Of a stretch of 64,000 nucleotides of DNA, positions 6,470 through 64,000 are shown one piece after another. Location: positions 62,001 to 126,000 of the forward strand of contig DRFI01000023.1 of the NCBI GenBank assembly GCA_011050675.1, in the 5' to 3' direction. The notes under the pieces were generated by a model. It had not been told where the DNA came from, did not search any database, and saw only the letters and a program-made list of their open reading frames with translations. Within the stretch, counting starts at the first letter, position 1. Each line of letters opens with the position of its first letter. Origin of the DNA: Maribacter sp. Lineage in GTDB: Bacteria; Bacteroidota; Bacteroidia; Flavobacteriales; Flavobacteriaceae. The position numbers and the translations under genes are program-made.

Positions 6470-7606
6470 ATGAAACATTTTACAAGACGCTCTTTTAATA
6501 GTCTAGCTACAAAAGGAATTTTAGGATCTGCATTATTAGGAAACATGCCTATGGCAAATGCGCTTACCTTGGGTGAAAAGAATAAAAAGTTAGGTATAGC
6601 TCTTGTGGGTTTAGGTAGTTATAGTACTTATCAATTGGCACCTTCGTTACTAGACACAGACCATTGTTATTTGGCTGGAATTGTGACAGGCACAAAAGAG
6701 AAAGAGTCAATTTGGCAAGAGAAATATAACATACCAAAGAAGAACATTTATAACTATGATAATTTTGATGCTATTGCAATGAACGATACAATTGATATTG
6801 TTTATGTAGCACTGCCTAATAGCATGCATGTCGATTTTTGTATTCGTGCTGCTAAAGCGGGCAAGCATGTTATATGTGAAAAACCTATGGCTGTTAGTGT
6901 TCCCGAATGTGATGCTATCATTAATGCCTGTAATGAAAATAATGTAAAACTCTCCGTAGGATATAGAATGCAAAGTGACCCTTACACCAATGAGGTTAAG
7001 AAATTTGTAAAAGAGAAAACATTTGGTGACGTTCTTTTTGTTTCTTCAGATGCGGGTTACATATCTAAAGGTAACCCAGAGCAATGGCGATTAGATAAAA
7101 AAATGGCTGGTGGTGGTGCCTTAATGAATATGGGTGTATATGCAATACAAACTAGTATTTATGGTGCCGGACAAAACCCAATATCTGTTTCTGCTCAAGA
7201 ATTTAGTACTAGACCCGATTATTTTAAGGATACCGATGAAACCATTACTGCCCAATTTAAATTTGATAATGGAGCTGTGGCACATATGATGACTTCACAT
7301 AACGCAAACGGTAATAGGTTAAAAGTACATTGTAGTGACGGTTGGTTCGAAATTGACCCTGCACATAGTTATGGACCTATAAGTGGTAGAACTTCTAACG
7401 GAAATACTTTAGAATTTCCGCACAAAAGACAACAAGCACTGCAAATGGATGATTTCTCTAAGCATATTTTAACAGGTTCTAAAAATATAGCACCAGGTGA
7501 GATGGGAAAACGTGATATGATTATTGTTGAAGCTATTTACAAATCAATTTCTGAAGGAGGAAAGGAGCAAATGCTTGATTTAGGTTATCTAGGTATTGTG
7601 TCGTAA
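6470..7606 (+). CDS. Tat-exported Gfo/Idh/MocA oxidoreductase
   Basis: NAD(P)-dependent sugar-type dehydrogenase of 378 residues. The start at 6470 gives a twin-arginine signal (TRRSFNSLATKG, hydrophobic run, MANA); the longer frame from 6377 has an unconvincing Phe/Tyr-rich N-terminus. The Rossmann segment ALVGLGSYSTYQLAP follows, then the family's GKHVICEKPMA motif with the catalytic Lys and the GGGALMNMGVYAIQ segment. The sugar substrate is not predictable. AT-rich upstream region; convergent with the TIGR02757 gene. Confidence 0.85.
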   Translation: MKHFTRRSFNSLATKGILGSALLGNMPMANALTLGEKNKKLGIALVGLGSYSTYQLAPSLLDTDHCYLAGIVTGTKEKESIWQEKYNIPKKNIYNYDNFDAIAMNDTIDIVYVALPNSMHVDFCIRAAKAGKHVICEKPMAVSVPECDAIINACNENNVKLSVGYRMQSDPYTNEVKKFVKEKTFGDVLFVSSDAGYISKGNPEQWRLDKKMAGGGALMNMGVYAIQTSIYGAGQNPISVSAQEFSTRPDYFKDTDETITAQFKFDNGAVAHMMTSHNANGNRLKVHCSDGWFEIDPAHSYGPISGRTSNGNTLEFPHKRQQALQMDDFSKHILTGSKNIAPGEMGKRDMIIVEAIYKSISEGGKEQMLDLGYLGIVS

Positions 7607-7689: not shown

Positions 7690-8454
7690 TTAGAATTTTT
7701 CAAAAACACCTAATCCAAATAGTGCAAAATCGTATTTAACAGGGTCTAGTGGGGCCATTTCCCTTAAGTTTTTGTCTAATTCGGCAAGAGCTTTAGCGTC
7801 GTTCTGTTTACGTTTTAACAAACCTAGTTTTCTAGCTACGTTTCCAGAATGTACATCTAAAGGACAAGATAGTTTAGATGGGTTGATGTTTTTCCAAATT
7901 CCGAAATCTACGTTTGTAGTTGCACCCCTAACCATCCATCGCAAAAACATATTTATTCTTTTAGCAGCAGAACCTTTTAATGGATCAGAAACATGTTTGG
8001 TTGTCCTTTGCTCATAAGGTATTTCAAAAAATATTTCCTTAAATTTTGAAATAGTGGGCTGTAAGGAATCAACGCCTTGGTGAAGAGTAAAAACACCTTC
8101 TAAGCCATTGTGCTTAGTATAAATGTTTTTAAGACTTTGAATAAAAAAGACTAAATCAATATCGTTGAAGGTTCTGTGTACAAAACCGGCTAGATTTTCT
8201 AAATCATCTTCTGAGTAATTCATCACAAAATCATAAGGACTTTGACCCATTTTTTCCATTAGCTTGTGAGAATTGTTGATGATGCTTTTTCTATTGCCCC
8301 AAGCAATGGTTGCTGTTAAAAAAGCACTAATCTCAATATCTTCTTTTTTATTAAAAAGATGGGGTATTTGAATAGGATCTGTTTCTAAGAATTCAGGATT
8401 ATTGTACTGAATAACTTTCTCATCAAGAAATATTTTTAATTCATTTTTAGTCAT
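7690..8454 (-). CDS. TIGR02757/DUF2400 family protein
   Basis: Cytoplasmic protein of 254 residues. Phrases such as TATIAWGNRKSIINN, HRTFNDIDLVFF, KGSAAKRINMFLRWMVR and CPLDVHSGNVARKLGLL are typical of this family, which has a helix-hairpin-helix DNA-glycosylase-like flavour but no assigned reaction. Its start codon overlaps the stop of the CPBP protease gene by four bases (ATGA), which points to translational coupling in a three-gene operon with the ABC ATPase. Confidence 0.85.
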   Translation of the reverse strand: MTKNELKIFLDEKVIQYNNPEFLETDPIQIPHLFNKKEDIEISAFLTATIAWGNRKSIINNSHKLMEKMGQSPYDFVMNYSEDDLENLAGFVHRTFNDIDLVFFIQSLKNIYTKHNGLEGVFTLHQGVDSLQPTISKFKEIFFEIPYEQRTTKHVSDPLKGSAAKRINMFLRWMVRGATTNVDFGIWKNINPSKLSCPLDVHSGNVARKLGLLKRKQNDAKALAELDKNLREMAPLDPVKYDFALFGLGVFEKF

Positions 8455-9008
8455 TCAATGGGGATATCTAATAATTGCATGATTAATACAGGGACAATTA
8501 ATACCATGTTATAGCAGGCATGTAATGCCATTGACCATATAAGACCAAAGCGTATTCTAATATATCCCAGAAGAAAACCCACACTAATTTGTGGAGCAAC
8601 TAATAGCGGAGAAAATAGTAAAACTTGCTTGGTCATTTCAAAGTTACTTATGTGCATAAAACCGAAAAGAACTGTAAATAAGTAAAAAGCAATTTTAAAA
8701 AATTTAGATTTTTTAAAAAAGACTAGTGGTCCCCTAAAAAAGAGTTCTTCGAAAAAAGGAGCTATTATTACCGCTAAGAAAAAGATTAATGTAACCGAAT
8801 AATTTTCGAACAAATCATCTATGGCATGTTTACCGACATTAAGATGAAGTATATTTTCTGCAAAACTGGCGACCATTAAAAGTATAATACTTAAACATAA
8901 TGCCAAAATCAACAATTTAAATAACGTTCTTAATTTGTGCGATGTAGACGTATTTGCATCCTGCTCGTAAACGGGATGCTTTGCAAATAGTAAAATTTCG
9001 TTTAGCAT
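8451..9008 (-). CDS. CPBP-family intramembrane metalloprotease
   Basis: Integral membrane protein of 185 residues with about five hydrophobic helices. It carries the CAAX-protease/bacteriocin-processing signature: EELFFRG (EExxxR) in the middle, a His in GFMHISNF, and a His in LHACYNMV near the C-terminus. Members cleave or process membrane substrates; none can be named here. It lies between the ABC ATPase gene (10-base gap) and the TIGR02757 gene (4-base overlap). Confidence 0.85.
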   Translation of the reverse strand: MLNEILLFAKHPVYEQDANTSTSHKLRTLFKLLILALCLSIILLMVASFAENILHLNVGKHAIDDLFENYSVTLIFFLAVIIAPFFEELFFRGPLVFFKKSKFFKIAFYLFTVLFGFMHISNFEMTKQVLLFSPLLVAPQISVGFLLGYIRIRFGLIWSMALHACYNMVLIVPVLIMQLLDIPIE

Positions 9009-59633: not shown

Positions 59634-60446
59634 ATGGATAAGTTACCAAAGATTGCGTTACCCGCAATATTTATTTTTATAGTATTGATTATTGGAATAT
59701 CAAAATCTACTGTTACCATTGACTCAGGTCAAGCAGGTGTTTTGTATAAAACTTTTGGTGGAGGTGTAGTTACCGATGAGCCACCGATGGGTGAAGGATT
59801 TCATCTTGTAGCGCCATGGAATAGGGTTACTATTTATGAAGTACGACAACAAGAAGTTCTTGAACAGATGAATGTATTATCTAGCAATGGTCTAGATATT
59901 AAACTAGAAGCATCAGCTTGGTTTGAGCCAATTCGTAAAGATTTAGGGAAGTTACACCAAGAAAAAGGGCTGGATTATATACAAAGAGTATTGCTTCCTA
60001 CAATTAGATCGGCTGCTCGTTCAGTAGTTGGACGTTATACACCTGAGCAATTGTACTCTAGTAAAAGAGATGCTATTCAACAAGAGATTTTTGACGAGAC
60101 TCAGAAGATTGTATCTGGACAGTATATTCAATTAAATGAGATATTGGTAAGAGATGTAACTTTACCACCAACGATTAAAGATGCTATTGAGAGAAAGTTA
60201 AAGCAAGAACAAGAGTCTTTAGAATATGAGTTTAGATTGGTTACAGCTAAAAAAGAGGCAGAGAAAGTAACTATTGAAGCACAAGGTAAAGCAGATGCCA
60301 ACCGTATTTTAAGTGCTTCTTTAAATGACCAAATCTTAAAAGATAAGGGTATTGATGCTACATTAAAATTGTCTGAATCACCAAATACTAAGGTGGTGAT
60401 AGTTGGTGGTAGCGATGGACTTCCTTTAATTTTAGGCAATAACTAA
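59634..60446 (+). CDS. Prohibitin/SPFH-family membrane protein
   Basis: A 270-residue membrane scaffold protein. One N-terminal helix (IALPAIFIFIVLIIGIS), then the SPFH/band-7 domain (DSGQAGVLYKTFGGGVVTDEPPMGEGFHLVAPWNRV, RQQEVLEQMNVLSSNGLDIKLEASAWFEP) and a C-terminal coiled coil (QEQESLEYEFRLVTAKKEAEKVTIEAQGKADANRIL). Probably forms inner-membrane oligomers that act on proteases or organise membrane regions. It follows the VWA-like gene by 10 bases. Confidence 0.93.
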   Translation: MDKLPKIALPAIFIFIVLIIGISKSTVTIDSGQAGVLYKTFGGGVVTDEPPMGEGFHLVAPWNRVTIYEVRQQEVLEQMNVLSSNGLDIKLEASAWFEPIRKDLGKLHQEKGLDYIQRVLLPTIRSAARSVVGRYTPEQLYSSKRDAIQQEIFDETQKIVSGQYIQLNEILVRDVTLPPTIKDAIERKLKQEQESLEYEFRLVTAKKEAEKVTIEAQGKADANRILSASLNDQILKDKGIDATLKLSESPNTKVVIVGGSDGLPLILGNN

Positions 60447-60487
60447 AACACGGAGTCAATTATTTTTGTTTCATTTTAAACTTTTGT

Positions 60488-60518
60488 TTTGTGAAATGGA
60501 AAATACCTTTTACTTTTA
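60488..60518 (+). promoter_or_regulatory. Candidate promoter of the his operon
   Basis: TTTG at 60488-60491 and TACTTTTA at 60511-60518 with a 19-base spacer; transcription would begin close to the leader peptide ATG at 60526. Confidence 0.5.
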
Positions 60519-60525
60519 CAGCATA

Positions 60526-60579
60526 ATGAAAAATAGAACTACACATCATCATATTCATACACACGCTCAGGCGAGGTAG
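60526..60579 (+). CDS. hisL: Histidine operon leader peptide
   Basis: The 17 codons read MKNRTTHHHIHTHAQAR and stop at 60577-60579. Five of seven consecutive codons (60544-60564) are His, which is far above chance and typical of a His-sensing leader. It is followed by an antiterminator segment and a strong terminator before hisG. The function is control, not a product: slow decoding at the His codons changes the RNA fold. Confidence 0.9.
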   Translation: MKNRTTHHHIHTHAQAR

Positions 60580-60608
60580 GAATGTATTGTAGTAGAACAA
60601 CATATTTT

Positions 60609-60645
60609 AAAACCCGTTTGAGCAATCAAACGGGTTTTCTATTTA
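60609..60645 (+). terminator. Attenuation terminator before hisG
   Basis: A 13-bp perfect stem (60609-60621 and 60626-60638) with loop GCAA and the T-rich tail CTATTT. It sits between the leader peptide and hisG. Confidence 0.9.
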
Positions 60646-60680
60646 AATCTCTTTTGGTTGCCAAGCATTAAATTAAGAAA

Positions 60681-61538
60681 ATGACTAAAATTAGAATTGC
60701 TATTCAGAAATCGGGAAGACTTAATGAGGAATCCCTTCAAATTTTAAAAGATTGCGGAATTTCCATTGATAATGGTAAAGACCAACTTAAAGCTTCTTCA
60801 AGAAACTTTCCAATGGAAGTATTTTATCTTAGAAACGGGGATATTCCCCAATACCTTAGAGATGGTGTAGTAGACATCGCCATTATTGGAGAAAATGTAC
60901 TAATTGAAAAAGGTGAGGATATATCAATTACTGAAAGATTAGGATTCTCTAAGTGTAAAGTTTCTTTGGCCGTACCAAAGTCAGTTAAATATAATTCGGT
61001 TAAGGATTTTGAAGGCAAACGAATTGCTACTTCTTATCCTAATACAGTGCTTAATTACTTAAAAGATAAAGGTGTTAAGGCGGATTTACATATAATAAGT
61101 GGTTCTGTTGAAATTGCACCTAATATAGGGTTGGCAGATGCTATCTGTGATATTGTTTCTAGTGGTAGTACACTATTTAAGAACAACCTAAAAGAAGTTG
61201 AAGTAATGTTAACTAGTGAAGCGGTGTTGGCTGTTTCTCCAAAGATTACTGCAGAAAGAAAAAAGCTACTTGAAAAATTACAATTTAGAATTCAATCGGT
61301 TTTAAGAGCAAGAGGTTCTAAGTATGTTTTGCTTAATGCACCAAATGATAAATTGGATGGTGTTCTAAAATTATTACCAGGAATGCGTAGCCCTACAGTT
61401 CTTCCTTTAGCAGATGAAGGATGGAGCTCCGTGCACACTGTAATTAAAAAAGATTCTTTTTGGGAAGTGATAGATGAGTTGAAGAAAGCAGGAGCAGAGG
61501 GTATATTAGTTTGCCCAATTGAGAAAATGGTATTGTAG
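60681..61538 (+). CDS. hisG: ATP phosphoribosyltransferase
   Basis: First step of histidine synthesis, joining ATP and PRPP. The 285 residues match the long HisG form: RIAIQKSGRLNEESLQILKDCGI, RDGVVDIAIIGENVLIEKGED, the PRPP site GLADAICDIVSSGSTLFKNNL and the C-terminal regulatory domain (LNAPNDKLDGVLKLLPGMRSPTVLPLAD, WEVIDELKKAGAEGILVCPIEKMVL) that senses histidine. So the operon has both feedback inhibition and attenuation. First structural gene after the attenuator. Confidence 0.96.
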   Translation: MTKIRIAIQKSGRLNEESLQILKDCGISIDNGKDQLKASSRNFPMEVFYLRNGDIPQYLRDGVVDIAIIGENVLIEKGEDISITERLGFSKCKVSLAVPKSVKYNSVKDFEGKRIATSYPNTVLNYLKDKGVKADLHIISGSVEIAPNIGLADAICDIVSSGSTLFKNNLKEVEVMLTSEAVLAVSPKITAERKKLLEKLQFRIQSVLRARGSKYVLLNAPNDKLDGVLKLLPGMRSPTVLPLADEGWSSVHTVIKKDSFWEVIDELKKAGAEGILVCPIEKMVL

Positions 61539-61634: not shown

Positions 61635-62921
61635 ATGAACAAAATATATAATCCAGCAAAATCAGATTGGAAAGATGTTTTAGAACGTCCTACTCAAACT
61701 GTTGCTGACATTGAAGGTTTGGTGAATGTAATATTCACCGAGGTCGCCAAGGATGGAGATGTTATGCTTAAAAAGTATACAGAGCAATTCGATAAGGTTA
61801 CTTTAGAGAATATGTTGGTTTCAGATATAGAAATTGAAGAAGCTAAAGCTTTAGTTTCAGATGAGCTGAAATCTGCTATACAATTGGCAAAAACCAATAT
61901 TGAAGTATTTCATAAAGCACAGAAGACTGGTCGTATTGAAGTCGAAACAACTACGGGAGTTTCTTGTTGGCAAGAAAAAAGACCTATTCAAAAAGTAGGC
62001 CTATATATTCCTGGAGGTACGGCTCCTTTGTTTTCAACCATTTTAATGCTGGCAGTTCCAGCAAATATTGCTGGTTGTTCAGAAATTGTACTTTGCTCTC
62101 CACCTGATAAAAAAGGTAAATTGAATCCTGCTATTTTATATACAGCGAATTTATGCGGAGTTACTAAAATTGTAAAAGTTGGAGGCATTCAGGCAATTGC
62201 AGGAATGACATTTGGTACAGAAACAATACCACAGGTATATAAAATATTTGGCCCGGGAAATCAATATGTAACCGTTGCCAAACAAATTGCAACTAAACAT
62301 GGTGTTGCTATTGACATGCCTGCTGGTCCGTCCGAGTTATTGGTTGTTGCCGATGATACTGCAAATGCTGCTTTCGTTGCATCAGATTTATTGAGTCAAG
62401 CAGAGCACGGTGTTGATAGTCAGGTTATTTTGGTTTCTACTTCTAAGGAGATGATTGACGCCGTTGAAAAAGAAGTAGCTCTTCAATTAGAAGACTTGCC
62501 AAGAAAAGAGATTGCCAGACAAGCTATCGCTAATAGTAAATTAATTTATGTGGCTAGCGACAAAGAGGCTATCGACTTAATTAATGAGTATGGACCAGAG
62601 CATTATATTGTGTGTGTAGAAAATGAGGATTTCTATATTGATAACACTCAGAATGCAGGTTCTGTTTTCATAGGTAATTATACACCCGAAAGTGCTGGCG
62701 ATTATGCCTCGGGAACCAATCATACCTTACCAACAAATGGTTATGCAAAACAGTATAGTGGCGTAAATTTAGATAGTTTTTTAAAAAGTATGACTTTTCA
62801 GAAGATAAGTGAAAAAGGTATTCTTGCTATTGGTAATGCCATAGAGTTAATGGCAGAAGCAGAAGGTCTACAAGCTCATAAGAATGCGGTAACCCTTAGA
62901 TTAAATAGCCTAAAAAAATAG
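61635..62921 (+). CDS. hisD: Histidinol dehydrogenase
   Basis: Last two steps of histidine synthesis, oxidising histidinol to histidine with NAD and zinc. The 428 residues include EKRPIQKVGLYIPGGTAPLFSTILMLAVPA, KIFGPGNQYVTVAKQIA, the zinc ligands Gln and His in LLSQAEHGVDSQVIL, EYGPEHYIVCVENEDFYI and DYASGTNHTLPTNGYAKQYSGV. Length is normal. The 96-base spacer after hisG contains repeat words. Confidence 0.96.
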   Translation: MNKIYNPAKSDWKDVLERPTQTVADIEGLVNVIFTEVAKDGDVMLKKYTEQFDKVTLENMLVSDIEIEEAKALVSDELKSAIQLAKTNIEVFHKAQKTGRIEVETTTGVSCWQEKRPIQKVGLYIPGGTAPLFSTILMLAVPANIAGCSEIVLCSPPDKKGKLNPAILYTANLCGVTKIVKVGGIQAIAGMTFGTETIPQVYKIFGPGNQYVTVAKQIATKHGVAIDMPAGPSELLVVADDTANAAFVASDLLSQAEHGVDSQVILVSTSKEMIDAVEKEVALQLEDLPRKEIARQAIANSKLIYVASDKEAIDLINEYGPEHYIVCVENEDFYIDNTQNAGSVFIGNYTPESAGDYASGTNHTLPTNGYAKQYSGVNLDSFLKSMTFQKISEKGILAIGNAIELMAEAEGLQAHKNAVTLRLNSLKK

Positions 62922-62964: not shown

Positions 62965-64000
62965 ATGAATTTCAATTTAGATAACATAACAAGAGAGAAC
63001 GTTAAAGGTTTAAGCCCTTATTCTTCAGCACGCGATGAATATGTTTCAGACGGGTCTACAATGATCTTTTTAGACGCAAATGAGAATCCGTTCGAAAATG
63101 GTGTAAATCGTTATCCTGACCCACAACAACGTGGTTTAAAATCCATTTTAGCTGACCAGAAGGGAATTAAAGAAGAAAATATCCTTTTAGGTAATGGTAG
63201 TGATGAAGTTTTAGATCTATTGTTCAGAGCTTTTTGTGAGCCTAAACAGGACAATGTTATCACCTTACCACCAACGTATGGAATGTACAAGGTGCTTTCT
63301 GGTATTAATATGGTCGAAAATAGGGAGGTTTTACTAACCGATGATTTTCAGCCTAATGTCATTGATATTAAGAAAGCTATTGATAATAGTACCAAACTGT
63401 TATTTATTTGTTCACCTAATAATCCTACTGGTAATAGTTTTTCAACAAAGACGATTGAAAAACTTTTGAATTCATTTAATGGTCTAGTAGTTATAGATGA
63501 GGCATATATTGATTTTTCATCTAAAGAGAGTTGGGTCTCTAAGCTTGCAGACTATCCAAATCTAATTATCACGCAGACCCTGTCTAAGGCATATGGTATG
63601 GCGGGTATACGTTTGGGCATTTGTATAGCATCGGCTGAAATTATTGCTGTAGTAAATAAAATAAAGCCACCTTACAATGTAAATCAATTAACACAAGAGA
63701 GAGCAACTGACCGTGTGTTAGATAAAGAAGCGGTTAAAAAAGAGATAAATGAAATTTTATCTGAGCGCGCAAAACTGATAGATGCATTGGAAACAGTTTC
63801 GTTTGTTGAAACAATACACCATACAGATGCAAATTTTGTTTTGGCAAAAGTAGATGATGCTACACTTAGATATAATCAATTATTGGCAAAAGGAGTTGTC
63901 GTTAGAAATCGTACCACACAACCATTGTGTGAGAATACATTACGTTTTACAGTTGGTAGTTCTGAAGAGAATAAAATACTTGCTGAGGCGTTAAAAACGA
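62965..64000 (+). CDS. hisC: Histidinol-phosphate aminotransferase, 3' end outside window
   Basis: PLP enzyme for the seventh step of histidine synthesis. Begins MNFNLDNITRENVKGLSPYSSARDEY and runs open to the window edge, about 345 residues, so only a few residues are missing. Motifs: LDANENPFENGVNRYPDPQQ, LGNGSDEVLDLLFRAFC, SPNNPTGN, VIDEAYIDF, the PLP lysine in TQTLSKAYGMAGIRLG and NRTTQPLCENTLRFTVG. Third gene of the his operon; later genes are expected beyond the window. Confidence 0.95.
   Translation, partial: MNFNLDNITRENVKGLSPYSSARDEYVSDGSTMIFLDANENPFENGVNRYPDPQQRGLKSILADQKGIKEENILLGNGSDEVLDLLFRAFCEPKQDNVITLPPTYGMYKVLSGINMVENREVLLTDDFQPNVIDIKKAIDNSTKLLFICSPNNPTGNSFSTKTIEKLLNSFNGLVVIDEAYIDFSSKESWVSKLADYPNLIITQTLSKAYGMAGIRLGICIASAEIIAVVNKIKPPYNVNQLTQERATDRVLDKEAVKKEINEILSERAKLIDALETVSFVETIHHTDANFVLAKVDDATLRYNQLLAKGVVVRNRTTQPLCENTLRFTVGSSEENKILAEALKT

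Follow-up and report, generated by a model that had tools for sequence, protein, structure and literature searches.

Introduction

The histidine (His) leaders of enterobacteria have a well-known anatomy, made of a leader peptide with a run of His codons, alternative RNA helices and a terminator. A similarly organized element lies in front of hisG in a marine Maribacter sp., within a stretch of 64,000 nucleotides (nt) of contig DRFI01000023.1 (positions 62,001 to 126,000, forward strand; hereafter the window, whose numbering is used throughout), and its sequence makes it very probably a transcription attenuator of the classical type, in which the ribosome controls the his operon. Indeed, it has in common with the enterobacterial his leader (RF00514) the leader peptide with His codons, the alternative RNA helices and the terminator before the his operon, whereas it differs in having a shorter His run, a likely near-leaderless start and a promoter of the Bacteroidota kind. 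Passages on the enterobacterial anatomy are found in PMC9413887, and a passage of PMC3766115 proposes gammaproteobacteria as the possible origin of attenuator motifs. In the region 60440-60700, RF00514 gave no match at gathering score and was not among the 12 matches obtained to E = 10. Since the leader of the window lacks a match to the Rfam His_leader even at E = 10, an independent origin is favoured, on the evidence of this one sequence.

The initial annotation of the window had remarked that attenuation by leader peptide is best known in proteobacteria, which does not make the present locus the first outside them, as both his leaders of Firmicutes and a flavobacterial hisG element with clues of leader-peptide attenuation are in print. 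Passages of PMC9413887 and PMC2965389 describe his leaders in the Bacillus cereus group, in Eubacteriales such as Peptostreptococcaceae and in Erysipelotrichales, which share with the window's leader a series of 3-5 consecutive His codons and terminator/antiterminator hairpins before his genes; they belong to another phylum and are likened here by description. With regard to the start of the RNA, the closest parallel is trpL of Sinorhizobium meliloti, where, according to the relevant part of PMC7298713, the attenuator RNA starts at the leader ATG and the leader peptide is leaderless. That system responds to tryptophan (Trp) in an alphaproteobacterium, whereas the amino acid here is His and a 5' untranslated region (UTR) of about 3 nt is predicted.

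Within the phylum, PMC9723704 reports for Flavobacterium psychrophilum structured 5' regions before amino-acid operons with "strong clues" of leader-peptide attenuation, and lists a hisG 5' element as present in other Flavobacteriaceae genera, without Rfam hits. The likeness to the window consists in the position before hisG and in the suggested mechanism; the main text gives no sequence, arms or peptide for that element (the supplements may hold more), and the two are compared by description. Thus, the class of attenuator is known and, going by the available text of PMC9723704, its presence in Flavobacteriaceae has already been indicated in print. Leader-peptide-like small open reading frames (ORFs) have also been reported in B. 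thetaiotaomicron, with histidine not mentioned in the consulted parts of PMC7366714, and leader genes have been counted in Bacteroidetes among other phyla in the context of reinitiation (passages of PMC4833913). A phylum-wide description of his attenuation was not found in the literature searched and, of the papers found, only PMC9723704 treats hisG in the phylum, as far as the passages at hand go. What is added here is the anatomy and geometry of the element, its likely near-leaderless start, its wide spread, and families with His leaders that lack an intrinsic terminator by scan. The locus also makes an amino-acid attenuator legible for a phylum in which little dissection of such control was found in the literature.

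The Leader Peptide and Its Histidine Codons

The reading frame in front of hisG bears out the 17-codon leader with five His codons proposed in the initial annotation, with His at codons 7, 8, 9, 11 and 13 and the stop codon at 60577-60579. Such a cluster is rare by chance. Indeed, when the upstream regions of 149 genomes were shuffled, short ATG ORFs with five His within eight codons appeared in at most 0.3% of them, and those with at least four in 0-0.4%, with none on the 149 reverse strands.

Conservation was followed at 80 named hisG loci, which are the best 80 of 551 relatives and for this reason are dominated by close kin; counts given below for 80 sequences refer to the window and 79 loci (L034 excluded), 77 of them distinct. 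A short ORF in which codons for the operon's amino acid are clustered is an almost constant feature, as at least three clustered His are kept at 79 of the 80 loci while the codons themselves vary (CAT 252, CAC 17 in the core). The core consists of three or four His, or else of HQHH (L064) or HRHH (L081), and is followed after eight codons by the stop in 80/80 sequences, the stop coming after QA(R/W/S/G/V) or variants. In addition, the alanine (Ala) codon that falls within arm 2, the 5' side of the antiterminator, is GCG in 79/80, a codon that makes up 12.7% of the hisG Ala codons of the same loci. The remaining residues of the peptide vary. The conserved core codons together with the fixed GCG make two constraints separable, codon identity at the core and RNA pairing at the 3' end. 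Conservation of the leader codons in relatives, which the initial annotation had set as a test, is therefore seen for core His codons 7-9 and fails for codons 11 and 13 (16/80 and 12/80).

Alternative RNA Helices

Folding of 60520-60650, as suggested in the initial annotation, gives a structure more stable than chance (z = -6.42), with 0/200 dinucleotide shuffles as good, and the same is true of the antiterminator fragment (z = -5.05; 0/200). Two helices compete for the same arm. A 12-pair antiterminator joins arms 2 and 3, with A60574 bulged, and makes use of the 5' arm of a predicted intrinsic terminator of 13 pairs (60609-60621 with 60626-60638), which lies between the leader ORF and the first structural gene; the antiterminator coordinates and a 13-bp terminator had been noted beforehand. 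The earlier view that all parts were legible holds for the ORF, the antiterminator and the terminator, and had missed a third helix, the 1:2 hairpin at about 60538-60596, which overlaps the control codons.

The 1:2 hairpin was revealed by folds of the single sequences and by pair counts, while RNAalifold on the alignment gave no such helix. In RNA consisting of the leader only, at least 5 of the 13 arm-2 bases are paired upstream in 77/77 distinct sequences, with a mean z of -3.2 (below -2 in 62/77). Across the alignment 84.2% of the 1:2 cells are paired, and 87 cells are changed on both sides, where shuffles give 30.4 +/- 4.4 and versions slid along the sequence 12-53. Covariation of this helix is thus apparent in cells and score, and not clearly in pairs or pair types. 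The 2:3 helix is paired in 85.6% of cells, with 34 changed on both sides (shuffles 19.1 +/- 3.4, slid 6-29), and the 3:4 terminator in 92.9% of stem cells of the 77 distinct sequences, with little variation. As far as these sequences can tell, the 1:2 hairpin supplies the part of the classical attenuator that was lacking and accounts for most of the covariation.

Ribosome Position and Folding Geometry

The effect of a ribosome was modelled by folding a transcript not yet extended to arm 4 (the 3' side of the terminator), with a footprint masked from -15 to +14 relative to the A-site codon. With the ribosome at any of His 1-3 the antiterminator forms in 80/80 sequences, and in 31/31 when placed at a fourth His, whereas with the ribosome at the stop it forms in 2/80. 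With leading edges set between +10 and +16 nt, a scan along the codons located the boundary of masking 0-2 codons beyond the last core His. In this model, a stall at core codons 7-9 leaves arm 2 free, a ribosome at codon 13 would cover it, and codon 11 is a borderline case. The geometry is consistent in silico with control by ribosome position, which had been proposed from the placement of the stop codon, and the fixed distance between core His and arm 2 leads to a prediction of the footprint model, namely that control fails if the His codons are moved.

Table 1. Features of the his leader region and of the first his genes in the window
Feature	Position	Strand	Details
Candidate sigma-A type promoter (Bacteroidota)	60488-60518	+	-33 TTTG 60488-60491, N19, -7 TACTTTTA 60511-60518
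Second, overlapping promoter candidate	60483-60486 / 60504-60511	+	TTTG / TACCTTTT
Predicted transcription start	60523	+	3 nt 5' of leader ATG
Leader peptide ORF	60526-60579	+	MKNRTTHHHIHTHAQAR and stop; 17 codons, ATG start
1:2 hairpin	60538-60596	+	5' side 60538-60565 with core His codons; 3' side 60570-60596 with part of arm 2
Core His codons 7-9, putative control codons	60544-60552	+	Conservation and stall geometry
Arm 2, antiterminator 5' side	60565-60577	+	
Inner helix extending the antiterminator	60579-60608	+	60579-60590 with 60597-60608
Predicted intrinsic terminator hairpin	60609-60638	+	13 pairs, loop GCAA, then CTATTTAAATCTCTTTT
Arm 3, antiterminator 3' side	60612-60623	+	Mostly shared with terminator 5' side
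hisG, ATP phosphoribosyltransferase	60681-61538	+	First operon gene; TIGR00070 187 bits, TIGR03455
hisD, histidinol dehydrogenase	61635-62921	+	TIGR00069 513 bits
hisC, histidinol-phosphate transaminase	62968-64000	+	Extends past window; TIGR01141 351 bits

Candidate Promoter and Predicted Transcription Start

A promoter of the TTTG/TAnnTTTG type had been proposed close to the leader, and the candidate fits, as the consensus of the 80 upstream sequences has the same layout. Counting from the leader ATG, the T-rich box of this consensus occupies -38..-36 and TAn(T)TTTR lies at -15..-8; position -3 is a purine in 74/80 and position -4 a pyrimidine in 65/80. In F. psychrophilum the -7 box stands at -12..-5 of the transcription start, according to passages of PMC9723704. 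Taken together, the layout of the boxes, the purine at -3 and the spacing of the F. psychrophilum -7 box predict a start at about -3 in the clade of the window, and the leader mRNA is thus likely near-leaderless. The same paper, in the parts consulted, counts leaderless mRNAs as only 5.5% of 890 F. psychrophilum genes examined, and states that translation in the phylum starts on signals other than Shine-Dalgarno.

Proposed Mechanism and Alternative Explanations

The ORF, the RNA arms, their conservation and covariation and the folding geometry are the basis on which the locus is read as a his attenuator, an interpretation already put forward in the initial annotation and supported here by the conserved codons, the alternative structures, the covariation of 1:2 and 2:3, the geometry and the his operon downstream. 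The mechanism proposed below adds to these a predicted promoter and start, together with predicted stalling, termination, response to histidine and state of the RNA without ribosome. Transcription would begin just 5' of the leader ATG, and a ribosome would load on the leader as it emerges. Under shortage of His-tRNA, the ribosome would stall at core His codons 7-9 and cover the 5' side of the 1:2 hairpin; arm 2 would then be available to arm 3 while arm 4 has yet to be transcribed, so that the terminator would not form in time and hisGDC and the genes beyond would be transcribed. When His-tRNA is plentiful, the ribosome would reach the stop codon and cover arm 2, 3:4 would form, and RNA polymerase would stop near 60640-60655. 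When there is no translation, arm 2 may be kept occupied by the 1:2 hairpin, which is the first to form, again with termination as the outcome. With starts independent of Shine-Dalgarno, loading of ribosomes and coupling on the nascent leader become directly testable.

A number of results weigh against this interpretation or limit it. At the level of the peptide, one locus (L034) reads MKNQNTYHHFFSCSQAR, with YHH in place of HHH; only the first three of the five His codons of the window are conserved; and three loci (L002, L003, L010) have a stop in place of the Gln codon, so that their first stop comes 5 codons past the core, a position still within arm 2. With respect to the helices, the structure of 1:2 was derived from folds of the very sequences on which it was then scored, and this helix does not clearly stand out from shuffles in how many of its pairs vary on both sides (11 vs 9.1, a value reached by 59/500 shuffles) or in how many pair types it has (34 vs 32.5; 159/500); the corresponding counts for 2:3 are also weak (95/500 and 34/500). 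Arm 3 is near-invariant within Flavobacteriaceae, and the covariation of the terminator is lower in the true alignment (0.059) than after sliding by +1 (0.082) or +2 (0.064), so the terminator's own covariation gives no help to the reading. Furthermore, the T tail of the window's terminator is interrupted, and the terminator was missed by a simple scan that required a stem and 5 or more T in 8. As for the equilibrium folds, the antiterminator is favoured in 47/80 sequences, the window included, with no ribosome and arm 4 absent; the no-ribosome state is therefore not fixed by equilibrium folding, and termination by default requires that 1:2 form first and hold. In the complete RNA, the terminator is found in 79-80/80 sequences with the ribosome at His 1-3, at the stop or absent, and in 31/31 at the fourth His. 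Since the terminator wins once arm 4 is present, antitermination must be kinetic, that is, chosen during transcription.

Different explanations of the same sequence were also weighed. The hairpin could serve only to terminate the gene upstream, which encodes a Band_7 protein on the same strand (59634-60446), the His-rich ORF being a chance frame and hisG having its own promoter further down; a hairpin between two same-strand genes would suit this, as would the similar CCCG..CGGG hairpins with T tail at four of seven weaker matches examined in the same genome for R1, a covariance model built from the relatives of the window. However, the frame, the His codons, the distance to the stop, the GCG codon and the 1:2 hairpin are all conserved, as is the promoter-like layout between the Band_7 gene and the leader, and hairpin and hisG are 42 nt apart, which makes this account highly improbable. 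A simple read-through terminator was accordingly set aside in view of the conserved leader frame, the 1:2 hairpin and the promoter-like layout. A leader acting mainly on the translation of hisG, or in trans as a small peptide or RNA with termination as a secondary effect, has a precedent in peTrpL/rnTrpL of S. meliloti, where both the leader peptide and the RNA of the attenuator are able to function in trans (passages of PMC7298713), and would accommodate a second copy of the leader in genome G427 with no hisG seen in the roughly 400 bases behind it. This possibility ranks highest among the alternatives and is still very unlikely, given that the motif of the terminator arm was found in all 80 sequences and its stem cells pair in the proportion reported above, while the residues of the peptide vary other than at the core His and the arm-2 codons.

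A structured 5' region ahead of an amino-acid operon might also be a ligand-binding riboswitch or a tRNA-sensing T-box instead of a device controlled by ribosome position. Nevertheless, the Rfam search of the window gave no family at its gathering score, the 12 relaxed matches in 60440-60700 include neither a T-box nor a riboswitch, the best of them being the L10 leader with 26 bits against a cut-off of 44, and conservation falls on a reading frame with codons for the cognate amino acid; this is the least probable of the three alternatives. Riboswitch and T-box were set aside, as no T-box model matched at gathering score or to E = 10.

Distribution in Flavobacteriaceae and Bacteroidota

For the classical his attenuator, R1 indicates a wide presence in Flavobacteriaceae, with matches in 132/149 genomes of the family at E <= 0.001 and 120 of them below 1e-6; the other 12 (best E > 1e-6) may be matches to the terminator only and, R1 having been built from relatives, matching within the genera of those relatives is to some extent built in. 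The location of the match was checked for the 30 best genomes, where the hisG start lies behind arm 3 in 26, a His cluster before arm 3 in 28, and both in 25. No family of the Rfam release searched matches the element, and alignment A1 together with R1 could seed one.

In the Maribacter genome itself, one place stands out with 120.6 bits against 40.0 for the next. None of the seven weaker matches examined has a run of three His codons; at L274, L275, L277 and L279 the weak match corresponds to another CCCG..CGGG hairpin with a T tail and no His run, and this hairpin probably represents a terminator type that is frequent in the genome. The second leader copy of G427 (L272, near the end of contig C126) comprises the his leader and the terminator and may reflect either duplication or the way the genome was assembled; the other copy in that genome (L273) precedes hisG.

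hisG was present in 252/296 genomes sampled across the phylum, and the survey covered 149 upstream regions of these 252 genomes (30 + 19 + 100 loci), with five same-order genomes bearing hisG left out. An ORF with a His cluster (at least three in eight codons) precedes hisG in 23/23 regions of the family, 27/30 of the rest of the class and 35/96 of the rest of the phylum, against a background of 3-5% in shuffles and 4/149 on the reverse strand; some of these ORFs, for instance at L190 and L085, look like chance. A terminator was found by the survey criteria in 50 leaders, and outside the family the arm 3 sequences differ (for example AGGCTTACC, AACCCCGGC and GGCATTCCGG). Of these fifty leaders, 45 have 60% or more of arm 3 paired upstream under a modelled His stall, and 2 do so with the ribosome at the stop; when arms were swapped between families (250 combinations), arm 3 was paired in 30% under stall and in 3% at the stop. 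The best TAnnTTT box begins at -12..-18 in 5/23 leaders of the same family and in 18/55 others, and elsewhere lies farther off (at -43 in six same-family genomes) or is absent. As 44% of shuffled upstream regions contain some TAnnTTT box, only the position of the box is informative.

By the scan for His-cluster ORFs, all ten f17 regions and the six f28 regions examined were without leader. In two other families, f23 (13 ORFs) and f3 (7 ORFs), no intrinsic terminator was found by the survey criteria, and His-rich ORFs without one by scan stand before hisG at, among others, L084, L093, L142, L169 and L178. The f23 regions have a G-poor, C/T-rich stretch after the ORF, with a weak Rho-like C-over-G signature (13.1 vs 10.6 where the f23 region has no His ORF). 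It is a tentative and rather doubtful proposal that His-leader attenuation is widespread and rapidly rewired in Bacteroidota, often almost without a 5' UTR and with ribosomes hardly using Shine-Dalgarno, and that in at least two families, f23 and f3, the terminator-less leaders have another output, such as Rho or the translation of hisG.

The his Operon and Other Candidate Leaders

Gene names for hisG, hisD and hisC are taken from NCBIfam. Past the window, the contig continues in one direction with a DUF2167 ORF, hisB, hisH, a GNAT ORF, hisA, a DUF1572/DinB ORF, hisF and hisIE. The three interspersed ORFs (L270:4024-4989, 6805-7227 and 7952-8470, for DUF2167, GNAT acetyltransferase and DUF1572/DinB, respectively) have no his-pathway match and lie within the his run. 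By hisG, the nearest named relative among the matches listed is Maribacter stanieri (97% identity).

Other amino-acid operons of the genome were inspected for comparable leaders. For pheA, no leader with a matching codon run was found. A Trp leader ORF MKNLNVNTWWWNNLRKTS stands before trpE (L239:1327-1383), its ATG lying 6 nt past the end of TATATTTG, and is accompanied by a terminator AAGGCTTGTC/GACAAGCCTT; it is likely a trp attenuator, also near-leaderless, and its stall fold gave no clean antiterminator. Before ilvD (L233:1124-1180), an isoleucine/valine-rich leader MNLTNINIEVVIVIPEWR is followed by a strong hairpin, AAAACCTGTATC..GATACAGGTTTTTTTT. In addition, a short threonine-rich ORF MDCYKTDIKFDFTSTTINYGSTTAWFTPWG, a possible thr leader, precedes an ORF of 821 amino acids for aspartate kinase (L234:1333-1425).
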